This document shows positions 29,775-37,409 of a stretch of 64,000 bases of DNA, in pieces. Origin of the DNA: Desulfohalovibrio reitneri (GTDB lineage Bacteria > Desulfobacterota > Desulfovibrionia > Desulfovibrionales > Desulfovibrionaceae). The stretch is from the NCBI RefSeq assembly GCF_000711295.1, contig NZ_JOMJ01000003.1, positions 1,809,501 through 1,873,500 of the forward strand, given 5' to 3'. The notes below the pieces were generated by a model, which was not told the origin of the DNA, made no database searches, and saw only the letters and a list, made by a program, of their open reading frames with translations. The first letter of the stretch is position 1. Each line of letters begins with the position of its first letter. Made by a program: the position numbers and the translations under genes.

Positions 29775-30089
29775 CTACGCCTCGAACAGCAGGCGGTCCT
29801 CACAGGGTTCGTTGTCTTCGAGGGCGTCGAGGATTTCGTCCACGGTCTCTTCGGAGTCCACGGTCTTGTACCACCAGTTGTTGGGCTGGACGACCATGAC
29901 GGGGCCGTCGTCGCACTGCTTCATGCAGCCGGTGGTGGTGAGCAGGGCGTCGATGCCCCGGTCGAGGATTTCGGTTTCGATGTACTGGGCCAGGTCCACG
30001 GCGTCCTTTTTGTGGCAGACGCCTTTGGGTTCCCCTTTGGCGCGGAAGGAATTGCAGAGGAGGATGTGGTAGGTGGGCTTGGTGGCCAT
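29775..30089 (-). CDS. Thioredoxin-like [2Fe-2S] ferredoxin of the nif operon
   Basis: A 104-residue protein whose cysteines C12-x12-C25-x29-C55-x3-C59 match the thioredoxin-like [2Fe-2S] ferredoxins (Clostridium pasteurianum 2Fe-Fd, Azotobacter FeS protein I). The GCMKQCDDGPVMVVQPNNWW segment is characteristic. The clostridial homologue is known to interact with the MoFe protein, so a role in electron supply, protection or cluster handling of nitrogenase is plausible; which one is open. It is the last gene of the nif operon, 43 bp after the NifB-like gene, and ends at a bidirectional stem-loop. Confidence 0.88.
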   Translation of the reverse strand: MATKPTYHILLCNSFRAKGEPKGVCHKKDAVDLAQYIETEILDRGIDALLTTTGCMKQCDDGPVMVVQPNNWWYKTVDSEETVDEILDALEDNEPCEDRLLFEA

Positions 30090-30132: not shown

Positions 30133-31260
30133 TCAGCGCATGGATTTGGGCAGTTTGCCCGCGTTGGGCGTAACGCCGAATACGCGGGCGGCGGCGGATT
30201 CGATGGGTCCGGGGGCGACCAGGACGGGCACGCCGTTGCGGCCCAGCACGCGGGCGGGGTTTTCCCCGGCCGAGGCCACCACCACGGCGCGGCAGTCGGC
30301 CAGGGTTTCGGCCAGGGTCTGCCAGCGCCGGTCGCCTCCGCCCCGGGGCGGGGCGGTCCGTTTTTCCCGCAGGGTGATCATGTTCTCCACCAGTTCGTAG
30401 ATGAGCAGGTGCTCGGCCTGCCCCAGGTGGGTGTCCACGGCCGAGGCGTCGGAGGAGGCCACGGCCAGGTGGGGTTTGGAGGCGTCGTAGAGGGTGGACT
30501 CGTCCGGGGCCAGGGGTTCCCGGCCGCTGTCGTGGGAGAAGTCCGGCTCCATGAGGTCGATGTGCCGCGCGGCCTCGGCCTTGGCCGTTTCCAGGGCTTC
30601 GGGGCCTGGATCGGCCTCGCCCTCGCCGGAGCGCGCCGGGTGGACGGCCATGGCGCTGGCCCCGCCCTCGGCGGCCCAGGCGGCCACTTCCCCGGCCTCG
30701 TCCTCGTTGACGCCCTTGGCCAGCACCATGTCCACCTTCACTGCGATGCCCGCCCCTGTCAGGGCGGCCAGGGCCTCGTCCTGGGCCCGAAGCAGCAGGG
30801 GGCAGGCCTCGTCCAGGTGCAGGTTGCGCTTGGCTGGGCGAATCCAGTTGTGGAAGGCGCGGCAGGTCTCGGCGCGGCGGGTGGACACGGCCAGCCCCAC
30901 CTGGCTCACCCCGGCGCTGGCCAGGTCCGTCGCCAGTTCGGCCGCGCCCAGGCCGCAGGTGAAGAGGGACACGGGCACGTCCGGATAGATGGCGCACAGG
31001 GCGCGCACGGTGTCCAGGGTGCGCTGCGGGTCGGCCAGGGGGTCGCCGGGTCCCACCAGGGAGAACACCGAGGGCGGGGCCCCCATGTTCACCGAGGCCT
31101 CGGCCAGGGCCACGGCCTGGCTTGGGGAGGCGGCCTCGCCGTCCGGCTCGTCCCGGGCCGCGTAGCGTGGCCCGGCCAGGGCGCGGACTCCCACGGGCAG
31201 CCGCAGGGGCCTGCGGGAGCAAGGCTTGGCGGTGGCGCACTGGTGGCGGGTGTCGGGCAT
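30133..31260 (-). CDS. NifB-like protein lacking radical-SAM cysteines, with C-terminal NifX-like domain
   Basis: A 375-residue protein in the nif operon. The body aligns with NifB: RPLRLPV at the usual GRIHLPV, SLVGPGDPLADPQRTLDTVRAL, ALTGAGIAVKVDMVLAKGVNED. But the place of the NifB motif ACNIQCNYC reads RALAGPRYA: all three SAM-cluster cysteines are replaced, and the only cysteines upstream are C8 and C14. The C-terminal 110 residues form an intact NifX-like domain (VDTHLGQAEHLLIYEL, CRAVVVASAGENPARVL). The frame is continuous, so this is not a simple frameshift. A cofactor-carrier, scaffold or regulatory role is inferred; a true NifB is expected elsewhere. Starts at ATG 31260 with AAAGGAAG upstream. 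Confidence 0.72.
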   Translation of the reverse strand: MPDTRHQCATAKPCSRRPLRLPVGVRALAGPRYAARDEPDGEAASPSQAVALAEASVNMGAPPSVFSLVGPGDPLADPQRTLDTVRALCAIYPDVPVSLFTCGLGAAELATDLASAGVSQVGLAVSTRRAETCRAFHNWIRPAKRNLHLDEACPLLLRAQDEALAALTGAGIAVKVDMVLAKGVNEDEAGEVAAWAAEGGASAMAVHPARSGEGEADPGPEALETAKAEAARHIDLMEPDFSHDSGREPLAPDESTLYDASKPHLAVASSDASAVDTHLGQAEHLLIYELVENMITLREKRTAPPRGGGDRRWQTLAETLADCRAVVVASAGENPARVLGRNGVPVLVAPGPIESAAARVFGVTPNAGKLPKSMR

Positions 31261-31337: not shown

Positions 31338-32723
31338 TCAGTAGACCAGTTCGAAGGACTCCTCGGTGGAATCGCGGTCCATGCGGTCCAGCAGGGCGTT
31401 CAGGATCTGCTCCAGCAGCCGGATGCCGCCCTTGTAGCCCGCGGTGGGGAAGTACTGGTGGCCCTGGCGGTCCAGGATGGGGAAGCCGTGGCGCACCAGC
31501 GGAGTGTCCTCGTCGCGGGCGATGTACTTGCAGTAGGTGTTGCCCAGGACCAGATCCACGGGCTCGGCCTTCATCCACTGGTGCAGGTGGAAGAGGTCGC
31601 CGCCGGCCTTGACGTTGTAGGGCGCGTGCATGTCCGTGGCCTCCATGATCTCGTCGATGCGCTTCTGGAAGCGCTTGCCCGGCGTGCCGGTGACGATGTG
31701 CACGGGCAGCATGTCCACGGAGCGCATGAACTCCACCAGGGAGATGACCTGGTCCGGGTCCCCGGCGATGGCCACCTTCTTGTGGAAGAAGTACTGGTGC
31801 ATGTCGGAGATGAGGTCCACCAGCTGGCCGCGCTCGAAGTCGATCTCTCCGGGAACGTTGGCCCCGGCTATCTGGCGCAGGGCGTCGATGAAGCGGTCGG
31901 TGGCGGCCAAGCCGATGGGCAGGTCCAGCACCTTGCAGGGCACCTTGTACTCGCTGTCCAGGTAGCGGGCCGCTTCGGCCGATGCCCATTCGCCCAGGGC
32001 CAGGGTTCCGGCGGAGTCGGCCGTGGAGGCCAGCTCGTCCACTGTGACCCCGGCGTTGGGGAAGACGTCGTATTCCCCGGTGAGGGGGCCGTTGAGCACC
32101 CCGGAGGTGTCCGGGAAGAGGATGTGCTTCACGCCCATCAGCCCGGCCAGCCGCTTCAGCTCGGCCATGTCCGAGGGCTCCACGAAGCCGGGGATGATGT
32201 TGATCTTGCCGTTCTTCTGTCCGGTGCGCTTGGCCAGGCACTTGACCATGCCCTTGACCATGTTGGCGTAGCCGGTGACGTGCGAGCCCGCGTAGGACGG
32301 GGTGGGCGCGCCGATGACGGTCTTGCCCTCTGGGATCTTGCCGTCGCTGCGGGCCTTGTCAACGATCTGGTAGATGTCGTCGCCGATGGTCTCCGACAGG
32401 CAGGTAGTGTGCACCGCGATGACGTCGGGCTCATAGACGCTGAAGATGTTGACGATGGCCTGCAGGAGGTTGGCCTGGCCGCCGAACACGCTGGCTCCCT
32501 CGGTAAAGGAGGAGGTGGAGGCGACCACGGGCTCCTTGTAGTGCCTCGTCAGGGTGGAGCGGTGGTAGGCGCAGCAACCCTGGGAGCCGTGGGAGTGGGG
32601 CAGGCAGCCCTTGATGCCGAAGGCGGCGTACATGGCCCCGATGGGCTGGCACGTCTTGGCCGGGTTGATGGTCAGCGCCTTGCGCTCGATGAATTCCTCG
32701 GGTGTATGTCTGAGCAGGGTCAT
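31338..32723 (-). CDS. nifK: Nitrogenase molybdenum-iron protein beta chain
   Basis: A 461-residue NifK started at ATG 32723 (MTLLRHTPEEFIERKALTIN). The P-cluster cysteines are in PAKTCQPIGAM, GCCAYHRS and VHTTCLSETIGDD. The N-terminus is about 50 residues shorter than in Azotobacter, the same feature seen in Clostridium pasteurianum NifK, and pairs with the insertion-bearing NifD here. With NifD it forms the alpha2beta2 dinitrogenase; NifK mainly holds the P-cluster. It starts 17 bp after nifD. A longer frame to 32786 overlaps nifD and is not used. Confidence 0.97.
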   Translation of the reverse strand: MTLLRHTPEEFIERKALTINPAKTCQPIGAMYAAFGIKGCLPHSHGSQGCCAYHRSTLTRHYKEPVVASTSSFTEGASVFGGQANLLQAIVNIFSVYEPDVIAVHTTCLSETIGDDIYQIVDKARSDGKIPEGKTVIGAPTPSYAGSHVTGYANMVKGMVKCLAKRTGQKNGKINIIPGFVEPSDMAELKRLAGLMGVKHILFPDTSGVLNGPLTGEYDVFPNAGVTVDELASTADSAGTLALGEWASAEAARYLDSEYKVPCKVLDLPIGLAATDRFIDALRQIAGANVPGEIDFERGQLVDLISDMHQYFFHKKVAIAGDPDQVISLVEFMRSVDMLPVHIVTGTPGKRFQKRIDEIMEATDMHAPYNVKAGGDLFHLHQWMKAEPVDLVLGNTYCKYIARDEDTPLVRHGFPILDRQGHQYFPTAGYKGGIRLLEQILNALLDRMDRDSTEESFELVY

Positions 32724-32740
32724 GTCGTCGCTCCAGCCGG

Positions 32741-34399
32741 TTATTCCCAGACGTAGGAACCGGTCAGTTCGGGGTTTTCTTCCCAAGGGGCCTTCATGAA
32801 GGACCAGACCTTGGAGTTCACCAGGCGATCAATCTCGTGGTAGAAGTTCACCGCGCCCTCGAACCCGGCGTAGGGGCCGCCGGAGTCGTAGGAGTGCAGC
32901 TGCTTCATGGGCACGCCCATCTTCTGGATGGAGAACTTTTCCTTGATGCCGGCGCAGAAGAGATCCGGCTTGTAGATCTCCACCAGCCGTTCGGCCTCGT
33001 GCTGGTTGAGGTCGTCCACAGCCAGGGTGTCCTTCTCCATGTCGGCCATCATGCCCTCGTATTCCCTGAAGAACTCGCCGCTTTTCTCCAGCTCGGCCAT
33101 TTCCTCGGGCGACTTGCGCGGCTGGAAGCGGTGCTCGTCCGGGCAGACCTCCAGCTCCTCGATGTTGCGCGAGTCGGCGTCGATCTTAATGTCCGGGATG
33201 ACGCGGCGGCCCTCGTAGTCGTCGCGGTGGGCGAACTCGTACCCCGCGGCCTGGGTCTTCATGCCGATCTCTGCGAACAGCTCCTGGTAGTGGTGGGCCC
33301 GCGAGCCGCCCACGAAGAGCATGGCCGTCTTACCCTCGGTGCGGGGTCGCACCTCGTCGCGAGCCTTCTCCACGGCGGCCATCTCCTCGGCGATGACCTC
33401 CTCGACGCGGTCCTTCAGCTTCTTGTCGCCGAAGTACTCGGCGATTTTGCGCAGGGACTTGGCCGTGGCCTCGGCCCCAATGAAGTTCACCTTGATCCAG
33501 GGGATGCCGTACTTCTCCTCCATCATCTCGGCCACGTAGTTGATGGAGCGGTGGCACATGATGGCGTTGAGGTCGGCGGTGTGAGCCCGGGCGAACTGCT
33601 CGTAGGTGGAGTTGCCGGAGAAGGTGGAGACCAGGGTGATGCCGCATCGCTCCATGATGTCCTCGATGACGAAGGCATCGCCGCCTATGTTGTACTCGCC
33701 CAGGAGATTGATGCGGTATTCGCCCTCCACGCCCTTGTCCTGCTCGCCCACGACGTGGGTGAAGATCTGGTTGTTGGCGATATGGTGGCCCGCGGACTGG
33801 GAGACGCCCTTGTACCCCTCGCAGGAGAAGGCGAAGACGTTCACCGGGTTGTCCGGGTTCTGCTCATTGAGTTTCTTCTTCATCTCCCGAGCCACGGAGT
33901 GCACGTCGTCGCCGATAAGGCCCACCGGGCAGGTGGAAAAGACGGCGATGGCCTTGGGATGGAAGGCGTCGTAAGCCTCCTGGATGGCCTGGGCCAGCTT
34001 CTTCTCCCCGCCGAAAACGATGTCGTTCTCGTTCATGTCGGTGGAGAAGCTGTAGGTCATGTAGTTCTCTTTCTCGTCGCCCGTGGCGTCGGTCTGGTTG
34101 CGGCGGGTGAGCCAGGAGTAGAAACCGCAGCCGATGGGGCCGTGGGTGATGTTGACGATGTCACGGGTGGGCCCGAGGATGACGCCCTTGCAGCCGGCGT
34201 AGGTGCAGCCCCGCATGGTGATGATGCCGGGGATGGTGCGCACGTTGGCCGAGATCTCTGGCGGGGTCCTGCCCTGGCCCTCGTTGATCATGATCTGCTT
34301 GGCGCGCTTGCGGGCGACCTTGGGCGGGTACTTCTTGAGAAGCTCCTGCTTCACGTCGGTGGGGTCTATGGAGACCGCCTTCTTCTTCTTGACTGCCAT
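32741..34399 (-). CDS. nifD: Nitrogenase molybdenum-iron protein alpha chain
   Basis: A 552-residue NifD. P-cluster cysteines are in MRGCTYAGCKGV and GPIGCGFYS; FeMo-co ligands are the cysteine in IMCHRSINYV and the histidine of QLHSYDSGGPYAG. Active-site residues equivalent to Azotobacter V70, R96, Q191 and H195 are present (CKGV, LTRRN, GVSQSAGHH). It is about 60 residues longer than Azotobacter NifD, with an insertion around residues 380-440 (AHRDDYEGRRVIPDIKIDAD to MMADMEKDTL), the Clostridium-type form. Near the cofactor histidine, the Azotobacter WDYSGPYH is replaced by YDSGGPYA. nifI1-nifI2 precede it, as in archaeal and clostridial operons. Confidence 0.97.
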   Translation of the reverse strand: MAVKKKKAVSIDPTDVKQELLKKYPPKVARKRAKQIMINEGQGRTPPEISANVRTIPGIITMRGCTYAGCKGVILGPTRDIVNITHGPIGCGFYSWLTRRNQTDATGDEKENYMTYSFSTDMNENDIVFGGEKKLAQAIQEAYDAFHPKAIAVFSTCPVGLIGDDVHSVAREMKKKLNEQNPDNPVNVFAFSCEGYKGVSQSAGHHIANNQIFTHVVGEQDKGVEGEYRINLLGEYNIGGDAFVIEDIMERCGITLVSTFSGNSTYEQFARAHTADLNAIMCHRSINYVAEMMEEKYGIPWIKVNFIGAEATAKSLRKIAEYFGDKKLKDRVEEVIAEEMAAVEKARDEVRPRTEGKTAMLFVGGSRAHHYQELFAEIGMKTQAAGYEFAHRDDYEGRRVIPDIKIDADSRNIEELEVCPDEHRFQPRKSPEEMAELEKSGEFFREYEGMMADMEKDTLAVDDLNQHEAERLVEIYKPDLFCAGIKEKFSIQKMGVPMKQLHSYDSGGPYAGFEGAVNFYHEIDRLVNSKVWSFMKAPWEENPELTGSYVWE

Positions 34400-34429: not shown

Positions 34430-34804
34430 TTACTGGATGGATTTGGTCCCGGTCTCGCCGGTGCGCACGCGCGCGGCGTCGGGGATGTCCATGACGAAGA
34501 CCTTGCCGTCACCGGGCCGTCCGGTCCTGTTGGTCTCGATGATGGTCTCCACCACGTCGCCGACCTCGTCGTCGGCCACCACCACGGTGACCATGCGCTT
34601 GGGGTAGAGGCGGCCCTTCTCGCCAAGCATCTCGGCGGCCTCCTCGATGCCGGACTCGGCACCCTCCAGCAGCTGGCTGTTGACCAGGCCCTTGCCCCGG
34701 CCCTGGCACTCCTGGGCGAAGAAGGCGTCCACGCCCGCTTCGGTCAGGGCCTTCTTGGTGCGGTTCATCCTGTCCATGCGGATGACGGCGATGATTTCCT
34801 TCAT
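34430..34804 (-). CDS. nifI2: PII-like nitrogenase regulator NifI2
   Basis: A 124-residue GlnB-family protein. It begins MKEIIAVIRMDRMNRTKKAL, has the ECQGRGKGL segment leading into a long T-loop and the C-terminal VVVADDEVGDVVETIIETNRTGRPGDGK typical of PII beta-strands and the nucleotide site. With NifI1 it forms a complex that binds dinitrogenase and blocks activity when 2-oxoglutarate is low (ammonium switch-off), as shown in methanogens. Its ATG overlaps the nifI1 stop by one base. Confidence 0.94.
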   Translation of the reverse strand: MKEIIAVIRMDRMNRTKKALTEAGVDAFFAQECQGRGKGLVNSQLLEGAESGIEEAAEMLGEKGRLYPKRMVTVVVADDEVGDVVETIIETNRTGRPGDGKVFVMDIPDAARVRTGETGTKSIQ

Positions 34805-35154
34805 CAGGCCACCTCCGCCGGCTCCGCGCCTTCCCGCACGCCGGAGGAAATGGTGTACATCTCCTCCACCGGGGCCACGAAGATCTTGCCGTCGCCGAAG
34901 GCGCCCTTGTCGCCGGAGCGGGCCGTTTCCATGATGGTCTTGATGACGAAGTCGCGGTCCTTCTCCTGGCCCACGATCATGAGCATGACCTTTGGGATCT
35001 CGTCGTAGGTGACTTCGCCGATCTTGATGCCGCGCTGCTTGCCGCGCCCGGCCACGGAGAACTTGGTCACGGCGGGATAGCCCGCGTCCATAAGGGCGGC
35101 CAGCACGTCGTCCGCTTTTTCTGGGCGCACGATGGCCCGGATCATGTTCAGCAT
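34804..35154 (-). CDS. nifI1: PII-like nitrogenase regulator NifI1
   Basis: A 116-residue GlnB-family protein between nifH and nifI2. It starts MLNMIRAIVRPEKADDVLAAL, has VAGRGKQRGIKIGEVTYDEIPKVMLM, where the short T-loop replaces the uridylylation loop of GlnB, and FGDGKIFVAPVEEMYTISSG. Location between nifH and nifD and pairing with NifI2 mark the NifI system for post-translational switch-off of nitrogenase. 27 bp separate it from nifH. Confidence 0.94.
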   Translation of the reverse strand: MLNMIRAIVRPEKADDVLAALMDAGYPAVTKFSVAGRGKQRGIKIGEVTYDEIPKVMLMIVGQEKDRDFVIKTIMETARSGDKGAFGDGKIFVAPVEEMYTISSGVREGAEPAEVA

Positions 35155-35181: not shown

Positions 35182-36165
<984 letters not shown>

Positions 36166-36302
36166 CTACACTTGTGAAAGGTCCGGGCCTACATTTTCGT
36201 AGCTTGTGTGCGTTGCGGCGGGCCAAAGCCCCCGGAATCCGGCGCGGGCCCGGATTTTGCTGCCTTCCCCGGCGACAAGCCTGGAAAAGGAGGGCCAACG
36301 GC

Positions 36303-37409
36303 ATGCTCATCGACACCACCCTGCGCGAGGGGGAACAGCGATACGGGGTCTACTTTGACGCGGAGGCCAAGCTGGCGCTTCTGGACAGCCTGCTGGCCGC
36401 TGGCGTGGAGGAAATCGAATGCGGTGTGGCCGGACGCTGCCCGGACACCCCCGGCCTGGTGGCCAGAGGCAGGGAGCGCGCCGGACAGGGGCAGGCCATA
36501 TCCGTATGGTGCCGGGCGGCCGAGGCGGACCTGGAGCTGGCCGCCTCCCTGCGGCCGGACCGCGTCTGCCTGGGCCTGCCCGTGGCAGACGCCCACCTGG
36601 AAAAGCGCTTGCGCATCTCCCGCGCTGGACTCGTGCACCGACTGGAAAGGCTGCTCATCCAGGCGGAGGAGTTGGGCGTGGCCTATCTGTCCGTGGGTCT
36701 GGAGGACGCCAGCCGGGCCGATCCGGAATTCGCCCTGGCCGTGGCGCGCGCGGCCCGCGACGGCGGCGCGCGGCGGGTGCGGCTCTCGGACACGGTGGGC
36801 GCGCTCTCCCCCCTGGAGACGGCGAGGCTGGTTGAGCGGTTCCGGAGCGAACTGCCCGGCCTGGACCTGGCCGTGCATTGCCACGACGATCTGGGCCTGG
36901 CCACGGCCAACGCCCTGACCGCCCTGGACAGCGGGGCGGACGCGGCCGACTGCGCCTGCCTGGGCCTGGGCGAACGGGCGGGAATCGCGGCCACGGAGCG
37001 GCTTGCCATGCGGCTGAACCTGGACGGACGCGGGGACTACGCCCTGGAGGCCATCACGAAGGCCTGCCGGGTGGCGGCCCGGTCCGCGGGAATGGAGGTG
37101 CCGGGCCACGCCCCGGTGGTGGGCGAGCGGCTTTTCTGGGTGGAGTCCGGGCTGCACGCGGACACAGCCGCAAAGGCCCCCGGCCTGCACGAACCGTGGG
37201 CTCCGGCCCTGACCGGCCACGCCCGCCGCGCCGCCGTGGGCAAAAAGAGCGGGAGGGCCGCGGTGCGCCGCAAGCTGGAGGAATTGGGCATGGCTCCGGA
37301 GGCGGAAGATCTGGAGCGGTTGACCTCGGAATTGCGGGACGAATCCTTGCGGATGGGCCGCGTTCTGGACGACGGAGAGGTGGCCCGGTTGGCCGCGAGA
37401 GCTTGCTGA
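36303..37409 (+). CDS. nifV: Homocitrate synthase NifV
   Basis: A 368-residue enzyme of the alpha-isopropylmalate synthase family, started at ATG 36303 (MLIDTTLREGEQRYGVYF) with AAGGAGG upstream. DTTLREGEQ and the metal-binding AVHCHDDLGLATANALTAL (HxH) are intact, and the C-terminal accessory region has the ESGLHADTAAK and AVGKKSGRAAV segments seen in NifV. It makes the homocitrate ligand of FeMo-co from acetyl-CoA and 2-oxoglutarate. Divergent from nifH, sharing a roughly 300-bp regulatory gap. NifV supports the view that this is a molybdenum nitrogenase with a standard homocitrate cofactor. Confidence 0.93.
   Translation: MLIDTTLREGEQRYGVYFDAEAKLALLDSLLAAGVEEIECGVAGRCPDTPGLVARGRERAGQGQAISVWCRAAEADLELAASLRPDRVCLGLPVADAHLEKRLRISRAGLVHRLERLLIQAEELGVAYLSVGLEDASRADPEFALAVARAARDGGARRVRLSDTVGALSPLETARLVERFRSELPGLDLAVHCHDDLGLATANALTALDSGADAADCACLGLGERAGIAATERLAMRLNLDGRGDYALEAITKACRVAARSAGMEVPGHAPVVGERLFWVESGLHADTAAKAPGLHEPWAPALTGHARRAAVGKKSGRAAVRRKLEELGMAPEAEDLERLTSELRDESLRMGRVLDDGEVARLAARAC

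Follow-up and report, generated by a model that had tools for sequence, protein, structure and literature searches.

A cysteine-less NifB barrel joined to a NifX-like domain in the nif operons of Desulfobacterota, a probable nitrogenase cofactor carrier

Bacterial NifB of the two-domain type (TIGR01290) joins a radical-SAM barrel to a C-terminal NifX-like domain. Five residues hold its fused 8Fe K-cluster, namely an N-terminal cysteine, a histidine and a cysteine of the barrel and two C-terminal cysteines (PMC9692996), and its SAM is gated by a flexible loop bearing a cysteine and a glutamate (PMC9692996, PMC7145814). In the NifEN-NifX structure, H35 of NifX ligates NifB-co, and the C-terminal tail of NifX, a helix, binds NifE (PMC13128457). 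NafY combines an all-helical N-terminal domain, which has no relation to NifB and binds apo-NifDK, with a core that binds FeMo-co, the ligand H121 lying within a His-Phe-Gly motif (PMC8496260). Both NafY and NifY bind the cofactor-less MoFe protein ahead of insertion (PMC6016461).

The protein described here is encoded in a 64,000-nt stretch of Desulfohalovibrio reitneri contig NZ_JOMJ01000003.1 (the window, in which coordinates given without a prefix are positions). We have coined the name CLB, for cysteine-less NifB, for the product of 30133-31260 (-). Like NifB, it has the radical-SAM barrel fold and a C-terminal NifX-like domain, and its barrel groups beside bacterial NifB in the tree; unlike NifB, it lacks CxxxCxxC, the gate loop and CxxC, and scores far under the TIGR01290 cut-off. 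With NifX it shares the NifX fold and a histidine equivalent to H35; it differs from NifX in its extra NifB barrel, a short basic tail and a low TIGR02663 score. With NafY and NifY it shares a two-domain plan, an N-terminal module followed by a cofactor-binding core, the module in this case being the barrel rather than the helical domain of NafY.

While the parts of CLB are known, we found no description in the open-access literature of a NifB barrel without cysteines combined with a NifX-like domain, in agreement with an earlier note on this DNA, which could not tie the protein to a described one. The NifB survey of Arragain et al. (2017) excluded 28% of 'NifB' entries, mostly without Cx3Cx2C and supposed to be NifX (PMC5715403). 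Like CLB, these set-aside entries have a NifX domain and no radical-SAM motif, and they may include CLB members; they were taken there as misannotated NifX, with neither barrel nor synteny nor conservation described.

The gene and its operon

The features of the locus, with their basis where applicable, are the following.

30133..31260, minus strand: CLB, cysteine-less NifB barrel plus NifX-like domain, 375 aa (open frame, profile matches, structure model)
30565..31206, minus strand: degenerate radical-SAM (NifB-type) barrel, residues 19-232 (AlphaFold, Foldseek)
31159..31182, minus strand: former CxxxCxxC site, residues 27-34, ALAGPRYA (alignment)
31039..31053, minus strand: GPGDP motif, residues 70-74, retained family-wide (conservation count)
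30835..30846, minus strand: family-specific motif W139-I-R-P142 (conservation count)
30178..30471, minus strand: NifX-like domain (PF02579 fold), residues 264-361 (profile match, AlphaFold, Foldseek)
30427..30429, minus strand: H278, aligned with NifX H35 and with the His-Phe-Gly motif of NafY H121 (alignment)
29775..30089, minus strand: thioredoxin-like [2Fe-2S] ferredoxin gene, constant downstream neighbour
31338..32786, minus strand: nifK, constant upstream neighbour
32741..34399, minus strand: nifD
34430..34804, minus strand: nifI2 (PII-type regulator)
34804..35154, minus strand: nifI1 (PII-type regulator)
35182..36009, minus strand: nifH
36159..37409, plus strand: nifV-like homocitrate synthase gene, divergent (TIGR02660, 2e-87, below cut-off)

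As the earlier note had it, the frame is intact, running uninterrupted from 31260 to 30133 (-) with an ATG start preceded by AGGAAG, and its G+C by codon position (0.76/0.55/0.92) is what a coding frame shows. The gene begins 77 bases after nifK and ends 43 bases before the ferredoxin gene. The genes run nifH-I1-I2-D-K-CLB-Fdx, nifV pointing the other way; nifY, too, is encoded together with the nitrogenase structural genes. The sigma-54-type pattern gave chance-level matches only, none of them close to nif.

What the barrel has kept and lost

AlphaFold models CLB with confidence (pLDDT 87.1, pTM 0.73) as two domains: residues 19-232 or thereabouts make up a barrel and residues 264-361 a NifX fold, and the linker at 242-256 is of low confidence. 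The top Foldseek matches are the NifB structures 7bi7, 7jma, 7jmb and 6y1x (TM 0.73-0.92 on the target), and 9ian, the NifX of the NifEN-NifX complex, is also found. The TIGR01290 profile matches residues 44-209 (9e-30) at 103.7 bits, its cut-off being 343.65; the PF04055 (radical SAM) score falls under its cut-off.

In the MAFFT alignment, the three radical-SAM cysteines fall on A27, P31 and A34 of RALAGPRYA, so that all three have indeed been lost. The loss extends further than was first described: the SAM-gate loop that follows CxxxCxxC in NifB, with its ExRP motif, is deleted, T136 of TxTxN is replaced, and the CxxC of CxxCRxDAxG is absent. In the cluster pocket, too, both K1 ligands are replaced, H43 by Arg and C129 by Ser (MaNifB numbers), and the K2 cysteines have gone with the CxxC, leaving at most the first cysteine of the K-cluster ligands. 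With most cluster ligands gone and ∼32% identity to the NifB of its own genome, the remainder of the protein was generously called well kept. The barrel is descended from NifB, and the missing radical-SAM cysteines and gate loop show, by sequence, that its SAM chemistry is lost.

A second, cysteine-complete nifB was sought in the genome and found at C3:1446823-1448007, its product having a NifX-like tail of its own. It belongs to a nifE-nifN-nifB group at C3:1444079-1448092 (L040), ∼390 kb from nifHDK-CLB. This gene rules out CLB as the only NifB of the genome, in which nifH, D, K, E, N and B are thus all present even with CLB set aside. In most relatives, unlike the window genome, nifE-nifN-nifB is contiguous with nifHDK-CLB; in G090 and G139 it lies on other contigs or far off, and their CLBs are degenerate like that of the window.

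Distribution, descent and selection

A contig scan with the window protein alone as query confirmed no relative, and query P0001 matched 114 of the order's 199 genomes, some of the matches being true NifB. A profile was then built from 20 relatives, and the best 80 named contigs of a larger number were used. These come from Desulfovibrionaceae, Desulfobulbaceae, Desulfocapsaceae, Desulfurivibrionaceae, cable bacteria, Desulfarculaceae and others. The cysteine-less form is present in every one of the 80, with nifK upstream in 76 and the ferredoxin gene downstream in 77, several of the exceptions being contig ends. The 131 distinct CLB relatives within Desulfobacterota lie nearly all in the same slot, which is fixed between nifK and the ferredoxin gene, as had been supposed. 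Neighbourhoods of 19 kb show nifV(-) / nifH-I1-I2-D-K-CLB-Fdx-E-N-B as a recurring arrangement in Desulfovibrionaceae. The CLB-ferredoxin pair stands apart from nifK in L129 and L151 (Candidatus Electronema / Electrothrix) and in L125.

Cysteines occur at the three radical-SAM positions in 0, 4 and 14 of the 131 proteins, never two together, and the gating loop is deleted in almost all. Since at most one of the three cysteines survives in any of the 131, a sequencing error concealing the motif, which the earlier note had considered, is excluded, and a frameshift likewise; the loss is common to the nif loci of Desulfovibrionales and well beyond them. Retained across the family in the CLB barrel are GPG(D), W139-x-R141-P142, Q160 and N185. 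The R and P of W-x-R-P stand at 100% in the 131 proteins, NifB having mostly D at the P position.

The cluster ligands are kept unevenly. In two alignments of the 53 order-level CLBs, the first cysteine is present in 50-51, the histidine in 40, the barrel cysteine in 39 and one C-terminal cysteine in 43-45, a Trp replacing one K2 cysteine in most; four of the five K-cluster ligands are all kept in 35 of the 53. The CLB of Pseudodesulfovibrio pelocollis (L082) is one that retains the pocket. In the wider set, just 3 of 78 relatives keep all four, which rules out the K-pocket as a universal conserved feature, a reading that the order-level set had suggested. The 35 proteins that keep four ligands, despite having neither the radical-SAM cysteines nor the gate loop, would suit a barrel acting as a cluster-holding site that stores or receives an 8Fe K- or L-cluster and forms a two-site carrier with the NifX domain. 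We think this unlikely, given the 3 of 78, the window copy with at most its first ligand, the few independent K-ligand changes on the tree and the Trp in place of a K2 cysteine. Likewise rather doubtful is an undescribed family of NifB-derived pseudoenzymes, their radical-SAM site and SAM gate cut out, that in the Desulfovibrionaceae clade kept the 8Fe pocket and would hold NifB-co on the barrel and pass it via the NifX domain.

The barrel tree places 33 cysteine-less proteins together in a single clade (99/93) next to NifB. The slot protein of G093 (L057:9026-10234 (-)) keeps CxxxCxxC and the loop cysteine, but two of its K1 ligands are replaced, one Cys by Thr and another by Phe, a loss pattern opposite to that of CLB. 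It joins the CLB clade in the barrel tree (100/96) and is possibly an intermediate. Because the AU test leaves its place unfixed, we make no claim that the radical-SAM cysteines were lost only once, a history to which the barrel tree points.

In six genomes of a related family, f4 (loci L074, L192, L193, L194, L198 and L199), a stand-alone NifX-like protein of ∼113 aa lies between nifK and the ferredoxin gene. The C-domain tree, of 108 columns only, groups the CLB domains with those of G093 and f4 (100/99), separate from the NifB tails. The C-terminus is thus NifX-like, as noted before, but its affinity is with the stand-alone proteins of the slot and not with NifB's own NifX-like tail. As the f4 proteins are nested in the CLB grade with moderate support (87/81), this tree favours loss of the barrel over its gain. 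The presence of a stand-alone protein in the slot, and its grouping with the CLB C-domains, suggest that the lasting function of the slot is NifX-like. A stand-alone NifB-type C-terminal (NifX-like) domain of ∼148 aa is also encoded near nifV at L196:10039-10497 (-), in G559.

The plasmid records gave, among the matches listed, annotated NifB or radical-SAM proteins. The one Nitratidesulfovibrio plasmid region examined has a cysteine-complete NifB and an empty CLB slot; in this region (L191, Nitratidesulfovibrio vulgaris plasmid pDsulf-L2-1), the ferredoxin gene directly follows nifK; this may explain how CLB went unnoticed in a species that has been studied so much. The slot is also empty in G009 and G010.

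Values of dN/dS were taken from close CLB pairs of other genomes, the window gene being without a close relative and its genus comprising one genome. They range over 0.08-0.50 in the leading 70% of the protein. In the C-terminal part most lie at 0.04-0.35, and this is exceeded only within a group of five near-identical genomes, between which changes are few; the NifB proteins of the genomes compared give 0.03-0.24. Both CLB domains thus show purifying selection in these pairs. The earlier proposal of selection on a non-catalytic role holds in the relatives, where dN/dS is well under 1.

Long barrel branches, the further ligand loss in the window lineage and the commonness of long open frames in this G+C-rich window could be taken as signs of a decaying NifB duplicate with no function of its own. 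The 131 homologues in the same slot across several families, the low dN/dS of close pairs, the invariant residues specific to the family and the codon-position G+C of the window gene make this very improbable indeed. Purifying selection on the barrel after catalysis was lost, with W-x-R-P and the other invariant barrel residues, is what one would expect of a pseudoenzyme that partners NifB, NifEN or the substrates of these and adjusts the flux of NifB-co, the NifX domain being secondary. We regard such a partner of NifB as distinctly improbable: the slot protein of f4 has no barrel at all, conservation is highest in the NifX domain, and the matched NifB structures are not known to need a partner barrel.

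The NifX-like domain and a proposed carrier role

PF02579 matches CLB residues 272-360 with 51.2 bits (cut-off 26.3), whereas the NifX equivalog profile TIGR02663 gives only 22.4 bits against its cut-off of 112. This is the best-conserved part of the CLB family, with H278, R312-W313 and D322-C323 invariant. The alignment of H278 with NifX H35 accords with an intact C-terminus, and the residue is retained in 53 of 53 order-level relatives, a set found without an HLG-containing pattern; its conservation is best judged on these, because one scan pattern of the wider profile search contained the HLG motif. The C-terminal tail is basic and of ∼12 residues, and the NifE-binding tail of NifX is absent. 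Three further PF02579 proteins of the genome were viewed in 3-kb pieces, and one has Arg instead of His.

CLB is probably a cofactor carrier, because it lacks NifB chemistry but has an intact cofactor-binding domain. We consider it fairly probable, judging from the sequence, that it is a pseudoenzyme chaperone of the NifX/NifY/NafY type for NifB-co or FeMo-co, with a dead NifB barrel. Binding of NifB-co or FeMo-co would take place through H278, and the barrel may be kept as a docking or shielding module, as in the NafY plan. Most likely CLB would take the cluster from NifEN (or NifB) and give it to apo-NifDK, in the manner of NifY or NafY; in the other direction, it would bring NifB-co to NifEN, as NifX does. 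We lean only slightly to apo-NifDK as the partner, on account of the position behind nifK and the lack of a NifX-type NifE-binding tail.

In most Desulfovibrionaceae relatives, the barrel, with four 8Fe-cluster ligands, may itself hold a cluster; the window lineage has lost most of these ligands. Since the NifB body is poorly kept here and most cluster ligands are lost, the window barrel itself probably does not hold NifB-co. Of the roles put forward in the earlier note, non-catalytic binding or carrying of the cofactor would fit best, the histidine being kept in all. Counting against a carrier are the role of the barrel, which the carrier model alone does not explain, and the low TIGR02663 score (22 bits versus 112).

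The transit of the fragile 8Fe precursor and of FeMo-co among NifB, NifEN and NifDK is a matter of active study and an obstacle to nitrogenase engineering. Surveys of diazotrophy can easily miscount proteins of the CLB type as NifB or as radical-SAM enzymes. A NifB barrel without SAM chemistry, long kept in evolution, separates the holding and hand-over of the cluster from its making, and CLB could be used to test making, holding and hand-over step by step.
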